Shown: positions 18,535 to 20,496 of the stretch, piece after piece
Layout: every line of letters begins with the position of its first letter
How positions within the stretch are numbered: position 1 is the stretch's first letter
Assembly (NCBI GenBank): GCA_019118935.1
Contig: DWXY01000059.1
Location: 1-35,508, forward strand
Reading direction: 5' to 3'
DNA length: 35,508 bases
Source: Candidatus Oscillibacter pullicola
Lineage (GTDB): Bacteria > Bacillota > Clostridia > Oscillospirales > Oscillospiraceae
Notes under the pieces: model-generated
Databases searched by the model: none
What the model was told of the DNA's origin: nothing
Seen by the model: only the letters and a program-made list of their open reading frames with translations
Translations under genes and position numbers: made by a program

Positions 18535-18542
18535 CTGTGCGC

Positions 18543-18632
18543 CTCATGATTTCCCTACGTTGGCATGATCCACATCAGGTAAAGGGTCAAGGCCTGGCTG
18601 GCCTCCTCTCAGCCCGCGCCAGCGGGCTCCCC
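18543..18632 (-). promoter_or_regulatory. TPP riboswitch (thiE operon)
   Basis: The minus-strand RNA shows the THI-box landmarks in order: GGGGAGCCC, the apical stem, GGGCUGAGAGGA, GACCCUUUACCUGAU, GUGGAUCAUGCC and ACGUAGGGAAA. CUGAGA and the ACCUGAU/AUGCC elements are the pyrimidine- and pyrophosphate-sensing parts. One deviation: AUCAUGCC replaces the usual AUAAUGCC. A terminator follows directly. I could not draw a convincing closing P1 helix. Confidence 0.94.
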
Positions 18633-18647
18633 ATTTTCTCGCCTCTC

Positions 18648-18747: not shown

Positions 18748-18760
18748 AGAGCCGACAAAA

Positions 18761-18845
18761 ACAGGGGAGCCCTCACGGGCTGAGAGGAAGCGGACCGCTT
18801 CGACCCTTTACCTGATGTGGGTAATGCCACCGTAGGAAGTTATGT
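18761..18845 (+). promoter_or_regulatory. TPP riboswitch (thiW-thiM operon)
   Basis: The plus-strand RNA carries GGGGAGCCC, a short apical stem, GGGCUGAGAGGA, an AGCGGACCGCU hairpin, GACCCUUUACCUGAU, GUGGGUAAUGCC and ACCGUAGGAAG. This is a complete THI box of standard length. A terminator follows 15 bases later. Confidence 0.95.
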
Positions 18846-18859
18846 ACGAGCATCCGGCA

Positions 18860-18893
18860 CGGCGGGCACCCCCTCAGGCGCCCGCTGTTTTTT
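18860..18893 (+). terminator. Riboswitch-controlled terminator in the thiW leader
   Basis: CGGCGGGC pairs with GCCCGCTG (one G-U pair) over a 12-base loop and is followed by TTTTTT. It lies directly after the TPP aptamer and about 270 bases before thiW, so the riboswitch should act by premature termination. Confidence 0.88.
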
Positions 18894-18991
18894 ACTTTGA
18901 GACGGAAGGGATGTGCATCGGCGAAAACAACATCCGGCGCCCCGGGAACCACCGGGAGCGGGCTGAGGGGGAGCGCCCTGGGCCCGGGCCG

Positions 18992-19115
18992 GCAAAACAG
19001 CGATGGGAAGCCGTGTTCCGGCGTGAGAGGAGGCCAGAAAGCCTCGACCGATTTTCCACAGCAGGCGGATGACCGCCTGCCGACCTTGCGTGGCAAGGGG
19101 AAAACGCTGTTTTGC
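18992..19115 (+). ncRNA. Unassigned structured leader RNA element before thiW
   Basis: Between the TPP terminator and thiW lies a segment that folds as one closed domain. GCAAAACAGCG (18992-19002) pairs perfectly with CGCTGTTTTGC (19105-19115). Inside are TGGGAA/TTTCCA (19004-19009 with 19053-19058), GAGGC/GCCTC around 19029-19045, the 8-bp hairpin GCAGGCGG/CCGCCTGC (19061-19080) and CCTTGC/GCAAGG (19084-19097). GTGAGAGGAGGC...GCCTCGACC recalls the TPP P3 region, but the pyrophosphate-binding half is absent. I cannot assign a known class. It could be a second riboswitch or processing element acting on thiW. Confidence 0.5.
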
Positions 19116-19161
19116 GCCGTTTTCTCCCTGCAAATTCTGATGGATCAAAGGAGAGTTCTGT

Positions 19162-19677
19162 ATGAAAACCAATTCCAAGAAGCTGGCCCTGGCAGGCGTG
19201 CTGTGCGCCGTGGCCGTGGTGGGCAGCATGCTCCAGTTCCCCGTATTCGGCAGCCAGTGCGCGCCGGTGCAGCACATGGTGAATGTCATCTGCGCCGTGT
19301 TCCTGGGCCCGGGCTACGGCGTGGCCGTGGCCTTCCTGGCCAGCCTGCTGCGCAACATCTTCCGTTTGGGCAGCCTGCTGGCCTTCCCGGGCAGCATGTG
19401 CGGCGCCCTGCTGTGCGGCCTGGTCTACTGGAAGACGAAAAATCTGCCCGCCACCCTGGTGGGCGAGGTGTTCGGCACCGGCATCATCGGCGGCCTGCTG
19501 TCCTATCCCGTGGCGGTGGCCTTCATGGGCGTGGTGGCCGGCTCCATCGCCTTTTACGCCTATGTGGTGCCCTTCCTGGTCTCCACGGTGGGCGGCTCCA
19601 TTCTGGCCGGCATCCTGGTGTTCACCCTCCAGAGGAGCGGCGCCCTCAAATCCATGCGGGCCGCGCTGGAGCATTGA
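19162..19677 (+). CDS. thiW: ThiW, ECF transporter substrate-binding (S) component for the thiamine thiazole moiety
   Basis: A 171-residue, very hydrophobic membrane protein. The N-terminal KKLALAGVLCAVAVVGSMLQ is typical of ECF S components, where small Ala/Gly residues contact the T component. VFGSQCAPVQHMVNVICAVF and GPGYGVAVAFLASLLRN are characteristic ThiW stretches. Five to six membrane helices fit. The start ATG has AAAGGAGAG upstream. It follows the TPP riboswitch and is 24 bases before thiM. ThiW is predicted in the literature to take up hydroxyethylthiazole; ECF ATPases and T component must be encoded elsewhere. Confidence 0.92.
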   Translation: MKTNSKKLALAGVLCAVAVVGSMLQFPVFGSQCAPVQHMVNVICAVFLGPGYGVAVAFLASLLRNIFRLGSLLAFPGSMCGALLCGLVYWKTKNLPATLVGEVFGTGIIGGLLSYPVAVAFMGVVAGSIAFYAYVVPFLVSTVGGSILAGILVFTLQRSGALKSMRAALEH

Positions 19678-19701: not shown

Positions 19702-20496
19702 ATGCTTGATTTCACCCGTCTGGACGAGGTCCGCCGCCGGCGGCCCCTGATCCACTGCGTCAGCAATATCGTCACCGCCAATGACTGCGCCAATCTGGCC
19801 CTGGCGGTGGGCGCCAGCCCCATGATGGCCCAGGCACCGGAAGAGATGGAAGCCATCTCCGCCGTCAGCGACGTCACGGTGCTGAACACCGGCACCCCGG
19901 ATGCGGAGAAATTCCGGGCCTGCCGGATCTGCGCCGCCTCCGCCCGTCATCCGGTGGTGCTGGACCCGGTGGGGGTAGGCGCCAGTCCCTGGCGGCTGGG
20001 ACAGGTCCGGGCGCTGCTGGACCTGTTCACCCCGTCCATCCTGCGGGTGAACCTGGGGGAGGCCCGGGCCCTGCTGGGCACGGACGGGCAGGAGCAGGGG
20101 GTGGACAGCCCGCTGCCCGCCAGCCGGGAGGCCCGGCGGGACACCGCCATGGATCTGGCCCGGCGCCGCGGGACGGCGGTGCTGCTCTCCGGTCCGGAGG
20201 ATCTCATCACCGATGGGGCGCGGATCTGGTGTGTCACCGGCGGCAGCGGCCGGATGTCTCTCGTCACCGGCACCGGCTGTATGCTGTCGGTGCTGTGCGG
20301 CGTGTTCGCCGCCGTGGAGCCGGACGCCGCCGCGGCGGCCGCCCTGGCCTCCGCCTTCTGGAAGATCTGCGCCCGCCGGGCGGAGCGCCTGGCCGCAGGC
20401 CGGGGCAGCGGCAGCTTCCGCACGGCGCTGCTGGACGCCGCCAATACGCTGACGGCCTCTGACGCCGCCCGGGAGGCGGAGATGCTGGCCCTCTGA
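19702..20496 (+). CDS. thiM: Hydroxyethylthiazole kinase
   Basis: A 264-residue ribokinase-like enzyme that phosphorylates salvaged hydroxyethylthiazole, giving the thiazole substrate of ThiE. Signatures are RPLIHCVSNIVTANDCAN, GASPMMAQAPEE, the substrate-binding PVVLDPVGVGAS, ILRVNLGEARAL and the anion hole SLVTGTGCMLS. The ATG at 19702 has GAAAGGG upstream. Being 24 bases after thiW, uptake and kinase are co-expressed under TPP control. A Gly-Ser stretch near the C-terminus is normal for the family. Confidence 0.97.
   Translation: MLDFTRLDEVRRRRPLIHCVSNIVTANDCANLALAVGASPMMAQAPEEMEAISAVSDVTVLNTGTPDAEKFRACRICAASARHPVVLDPVGVGASPWRLGQVRALLDLFTPSILRVNLGEARALLGTDGQEQGVDSPLPASREARRDTAMDLARRRGTAVLLSGPEDLITDGARIWCVTGGSGRMSLVTGTGCMLSVLCGVFAAVEPDAAAAAALASAFWKICARRAERLAAGRGSGSFRTALLDAANTLTASDAAREAEMLAL

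Follow-up and report, generated by a model that had tools for sequence, protein, structure and literature searches.

A relative of the TPP aptamer as a riboswitch candidate in the leader of thiW

The leader of thiW in the window (the whole 35,508-nt stretch of Candidatus Oscillibacter pullicola DNA that was analysed) contains, 3' of a TPP riboswitch, a second structured RNA element that is related to the TPP aptamer: it has kept the pyrimidine-sensing arm, it lacks the pyrophosphate-sensing arm, and it has an additional hairpin on its 5' side. We consider it probable that this element is a cis-regulatory RNA that has its ligand-gripping half in common, probably through descent, with the TPP aptamer, and that it provides thiW with an input separate from TPP. 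Its sequence and gene context suggest that the element is most likely an undescribed riboswitch candidate whose ligand would be a thiamin metabolite that carries the pyrimidine but is not TPP, with HMP-PP as the first candidate. No description of such a thiW RNA was found in the open-access literature searched.

The initial annotation had proposed a structured domain at 18992..19115, behind a TPP aptamer and its terminator. The aptamer (RF00059) and, by reading, the terminator do precede the domain (Table 1), and both reading and predicted folds reproduce the 11-bp perfect helix that closes it (18992-19002 with 19105-19115, here called P1) and an 8-bp perfect hairpin within it (19061-19068 with 19073-19080); the further hairpins at 19010-19022, 19030-19045 and 19084-19098 are likewise present in the sequence and in predicted folds. 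While the helices stood, the limits did not: they omit a 5' hairpin (hairpin A, 18959-18986) and an alternative pairing strand (19118-19131), and the element is wider than first given, spanning 18957-19115 plus the alternative strand up to 19131. None of 200 shuffles was as stable as the 136-nt fold (z -3.09), and one of 200 was as stable as the fold of the 286-nt leader (z -3.58). Rfam returned no credible family for 18890-19165 at E values up to 10; the only overlapping matches were to unrelated families, scored far below the gathering thresholds, and two lay on the opposite strand. In 20 relative loci, too, no Rfam match to the element reached a gathering score. The minus strand of the window carries another TPP aptamer, a divergent one, 5' of thiE (18535-18642; 48.4 bits, under the Rfam gathering score).

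Table 1. Features of the thiW leader and neighbouring genes in the window.
Feature	Position	Strand	Evidence
TPP riboswitch aptamer, head of thiW leader	18753..18855	+	RF00059, 64.3 bits, above gathering score
Terminator-like hairpin and T run 3' of TPP aptamer	18861..18895	+	By reading
Hairpin A, loop GGAGCG at 18970-18975	18959..18986	+	9 of 10 pairs vary on both sides; loop GGAGC in 41/41 rows
Domain closed by P1 (18992-19002 with 19105-19115)	18992..19115	+	Reading; P1 partner-swap test
TPP-like pyrimidine arm	19004..19050	+	Model R1 match to same arm in both window TPP aptamers
P2 of the arm	19004-19006/19048-19050		
P3 of the arm	19010-19013/19019-19022		
T-loop UGAGA of the arm	19024-19028		
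P3a of the arm	19030-19034/19041-19045		
Variable inner helices (19052-19057/19099-19104, 19061-19080, 19084-19098)	19052..19104	+	Predicted folds
Alternative helix, 19093-19106 with 19118-19131, 13 of 14 pairs	19093..19131	+	Reading; shuffle comparison in thiW leaders
thiW ribosome site GGAGA	19150..19154	+	By reading
thiW, ECF transporter S component for thiazole precursor	19162..19677	+	TIGR02359, 152 bits, above cut-off
thiM, hydroxyethylthiazole kinase	19702..20496	+	PRK09355/NF006830, 242 bits, above cut-off

Conservation was assessed in thiW loci that were collected by similarity of the ThiW protein, with no use of the RNA, and of which the best 80 of 354, a set skewed toward close ThiW relatives, were kept. 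A 26-nt core (19005-19030) is identical in 72 of these 80 loci, and in 72/72 the sequence GGAGC[GU], the loop of hairpin A, is found no more than 110 nt upstream of the core. Among the eight loci that lack the core, four have a TPP aptamer only, three have neither (by reading), and one is on a contig that ends 78 nt upstream of thiW. Hairpin A is the best-covarying part of the element. Changes on both sides were found at nine of its ten pairs and at three of the five pairs of P3a (64 of 73 located elements), and for these two helices none of 500 shuffles reached any of five measures of covariation, which fell clearly when the partners were slid; the structure was drawn from the same sequences that were tested, and the shuffles ignore relatedness. 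P3 covaries in three of four pairs in a wider set that includes divergent copies (n = 41), its first pair being GC in 29, CG in 11 and UA in one. P2 never varies and is therefore without covariation support. The inner helices differ in length and sequence from locus to locus. As hairpin A, P3 and P3a covary, the core is conserved among thiW leaders and Rfam gives no match, the proposal of an unassigned, structured and conserved leader element is borne out. By reading, near relatives have in the region 18934-18992 a GGC/GCC helix and a CCCGG/CCGGG hairpin around hairpin A, and distant copies have neither. Pairing is also possible between the GGAGC loop and the P3 loop (UGUUY), as in a kissing contact; both loops are nearly invariant.

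The outer positions of P1 show several pair types among loci, and P1 was examined by exchanging partner strands between them. P1 measured 4.15 bp with its own partner versus 2.52 bp with foreign strands, and it reached 5 bp or more in 49 of 121 cases with its own partner versus 8.4% with foreign strands. An earlier duplex test, in which the own strand beat 95% of foreign strands in 25/121, was weak, as CAGCG is common to most P1 strands.

The initial annotation had noted a likeness to one half of a TPP aptamer, and computation recovered it. When a covariance model built from the element alone (R1) was run on the window, the best two matches after the element itself were the P2-P3-P3a arms of both TPP aptamers (E 0.009 and 0.17). 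Genome-search matches of models of the element split into a strong and a weak group, and all 31 weak matches examined are TPP riboswitches; five of these came from the R1 search and were identified by reading, and 26 came from the class and phylum searches (25 identified through a sequence test and L178 on visual inspection). By sequence test, the TPP pyrophosphate arm is present in 25 of the 26 weak matches versus 0 of 19 strong matches, and the corresponding sensor arm, P4-P5 (ACCUGAU..GG.UAAU.CC..CGUAGG), was not found by reading in 19050-19115. In the E. coli TPP aptamer, the HMP ring is recognized by the T-loop 39-43, the G19-G42-A47 triple and a contact of A41 to G18-C48 (PMC3764141). 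The equivalent positions of the element (19005-19007, 19024-19028 and 19047-19049) are invariant in 41/41 aligned rows, which were picked among model and core matches in a way that favours invariance at such positions, with the E. coli numbers placed by alignment. In place of G16-C50, a pair that in E. coli meets a residue of the junction leading to the second arm, 28 rows have U-G and 13 lack the U. A change at this pair together with invariant HMP-ring positions is what would be expected if the pyrimidine grip was kept and the pyrophosphate arm was gone.

Alternatively, the near-absolute conservation could result from contact with a protein, with the RNA serving as a protein-binding or processing element that senses no metabolite. 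The sequence is indeed unusually rigid, with 26 nt unchanged in 72 loci, but the kinship with a metabolite aptamer and the presence of a riboswitch-like alternative helix (see below) argue against this explanation, which we regard as improbable.

Judged by sequence and predicted structure, the element is neither a TPP riboswitch nor, going by the description of that class, a thiS-motif riboswitch, though it lies in the territory of both. It shares P2, P3, the T-loop UGAGA, P3a, the GA before CC and the association with thiamin genes with the TPP riboswitch (THI element, RF00059), but it lacks the P4-P5 pyrophosphate arm, has an extra covarying 5' hairpin and a variable insert inside P1, and is not matched by the RF00059 model (18890-19165, E ≤ 10). 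The thiS motif, an HMP-PP riboswitch, likewise precedes thiW and other HET-P genes, in many cases with a TPP riboswitch ahead of it; it is described as a small aptamer embedded in the stem of an intrinsic terminator with a U run, working by a logic in which thiazole supply is raised when HMP-PP accumulates (PMC6478431). Set against that description, the element is a multi-helix domain with no terminator 3' of it in the window, and no T run following P1 or the alternative helix was found by reading at 19115-19145. TPP-class variants that favour thiamin or TMP are mentioned in one sentence, cited as unpublished, of PMC9481103. By that brief description, such variants would likewise keep the pyrimidine pocket and alter the phosphate side, but they are classed as TPP riboswitches, whereas the element is not recognized by the TPP model. 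As is generally expected of a riboswitch, a conserved, covarying candidate aptamer is found here in the leader of a related gene.

Among 394 genomes of the order, 37 contain the element by model R1 (the model matched 42, five of them through TPP riboswitches only). Model R2 gave strong matches (≥62 bits) in 18 of 391 genomes at the class level and in 6 of 398 at the phylum level, and a search with an exact pattern, allowing up to three mismatches, found the element in 3 of 299 phylum genomes, this genome among them. The first recognized downstream gene in 120 non-identical loci besides that of the window (71 gathered via ThiW and 49 via RNA searches) is thiW in 114, thiM in three and a gene for a PhnD-like binding protein in three; for the loci from RNA searches, thiW is downstream in 43/49. 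At one of the three thiM loci, L137, a weaker ThiW match precedes thiM.

TPP aptamers frequently accompany the element. A loose test detected a TPP-like pattern within 700 nt upstream in about 92 of 121 loci, and scans of L119 and of 27 of the remaining 29 loci (28 in all) added at least four (L020, L032, L061 and L130), with L119 doubtful. Some loci, for example L118, L121, L122, L163, L164, L115 and L116, have no Rfam TPP match ahead of the element. In L096 and L104, two TPP aptamers precede the element by sequence test, suggesting three sensors in a row. The gene order is TPP-thiM-thiE-element-thiW in L036, L043, L052, L065 and L067 and TPP-thiC-element-thiW in L121 and L122, and we infer that each of these seven TPP-headed clusters is a single transcript. 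Since the element is located just before thiW in these clusters, an extra input that acts on thiW alone would be expected to be something other than TPP. These arrangements bear on the alternative that the element is a second TPP sensor, in which the 5' hairpin would grip the phosphates instead of the missing arm and the tandem would sharpen the response to TPP. Such a sensor would account for the retained pyrimidine arm and for the loci with no Rfam TPP match ahead of the element, and TPP riboswitches that respond to one ligand are known to occur in tandem (PMC9481103). However, in the seven clusters TPP aptamers already head the upstream genes and the element adds an input before thiW, and none of the contacts that the second arm is known to make with TPP is present; we consider a second TPP sensor unlikely.

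We favour a ligand order, proposed from sequence, in which HMP-PP, or HMP or HMP-P, would come first and thiamin or thiamin monophosphate second, with TPP, hydroxyethylthiazole (HET) or a protein less likely. HMP-PP or its precursors are placed first because the kept pocket suits a pyrimidine and because of the logic of the thiS motif. In the mechanism that we envisage, the pyrimidine arm would still hold the aminopyrimidine (HMP) group, the 5' GGAGC hairpin would stand in for the lost arm, and ligand binding would close P1 and release the strand 19118-19131 from its alternative partner, so that thiazole import would track the supply of its reaction partner, HMP-PP. Our tentative proposal, somewhat short of an even chance, is that this class retained from the TPP aptamer the half that grips the pyrimidine, shed the one for the pyrophosphate and acquired a separate 5' hairpin with which it would sense HMP-PP (or HMP, HMP-P). 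ThiC, the usual source of HMP, scored above its cut-off in 31 of 56 element genomes, some of which are incomplete, and was not found in 24/56, this genome among them, which counts against HMP-PP. For ThiG, 26/56 pass Pfam's low cut-off and 7/56 are full scale (>290 bits), the matches below full scale being weak stretches that were taken for other barrel proteins. With full-scale ThiG in few and ThiC in 31/56, most element genomes probably import thiazole and many make HMP, which speaks for the favoured reading. If the proposal is correct, RNA would have arrived twice, independently, at a solution to the task that the thiS motif performs, and the element would be a naturally occurring modular aptamer whose ligand changed through the exchange of an arm. 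Such a family, with one arm retained and the other replaced, would show ligand specificity evolving by modules, and this one would explain the control of thiazole import in gut Clostridia seemingly without thiazole synthesis. The element is also a short, invariant RNA that is open to direct testing.

Pairing of 19093-19106 with 19118-19131 excludes P1 and the inner helices, and this alternative helix is a conserved feature of thiW leaders. It beats the shuffle mean in 65 of 68 thiW leaders (median z -1.37, with 20 below -2 and the window at -1.7), and by reading its letters differ between loci while pairing is kept (for example GGGGAAAACG/CGTTTTCTCC, GTGGGTGGC/GCCATCCAC, GGAAGCG/CGTTTCC and GAGGGAGGC/GCCGCCCTC). 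The initial annotation had suggested a different switch, in which TTCTCC (19122-19127) pairs with the GGAGA of the thiW ribosome site (19150-19154). Both sequences are present, but their pairing as a conserved anti-SD design was rejected: the median z was +0.22, and 43 of 67 leaders (67 of the 72 thiW leaders) lay above the shuffle mean. CTCC occurs in 32 leaders versus 16.3 expected, an excess that the alternative helix also explains.

The direction of the putative switch is indicated differently by folding and by physiology. In 67 thiW leaders whose start sites were placed by means of the ThiW match, predicted openness of the ribosome site was greater without P1 in 22/67 and greater with P1 in 6/67 (Wilcoxon p 0.005, uncorrected for relatedness), a small mean shift (0.377 vs 0.328) in a test run without a shuffled control. 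A first accessibility test on 119 loci, in several of which the start sites were wrong, gave no effect (0.018 vs 0.020 for the control). Crude folding thus leans toward OFF, which fits HMP-PP badly, while physiology says ON for HMP-PP. An OFF switch would suit a sensor of HET, or its phosphate, that shuts off thiW, the ligand type suggested by the initial annotation; the nearly exclusive link to thiW and thiM and the simplicity of feedback on import also speak for such a sensor. Against HET stands the identity of the conserved half, which is the one that binds the pyrimidine and which keeps all of the listed positions of the pyrimidine grip, and we regard a HET sensor as very improbable.

This genome carries a second copy of the element (L115:2202-2310; G000:C114:12701-12809), 5' of a PhnD/p37-like ABC transporter, an arrangement found in three genomes including this one. 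The PhnD-like protein at this locus matches PF12974 and scores exactly at the cut-off for CypI (thiamin-binding lipoprotein family), and the transporter may carry a thiamin-related compound; a structure comparison of the protein singled out no substrate. Five PhnD-like homologues were found in 245 genomes, three with the element and two without it, the latter also counting against the favoured reading. A contig labelled Bacteriophage sp. (L188, MT837401.1), which may be a mislabelled bacterial contig, encodes a PhnD-like homologue with 47% identity. A third TPP aptamer in this genome (L182:4807-4913, minus strand, G000:C90; 52.8 bits) precedes a cluster that, from reading of its proteins, is tenA- and thiXYZ-like (HMP-type ABC transporter).
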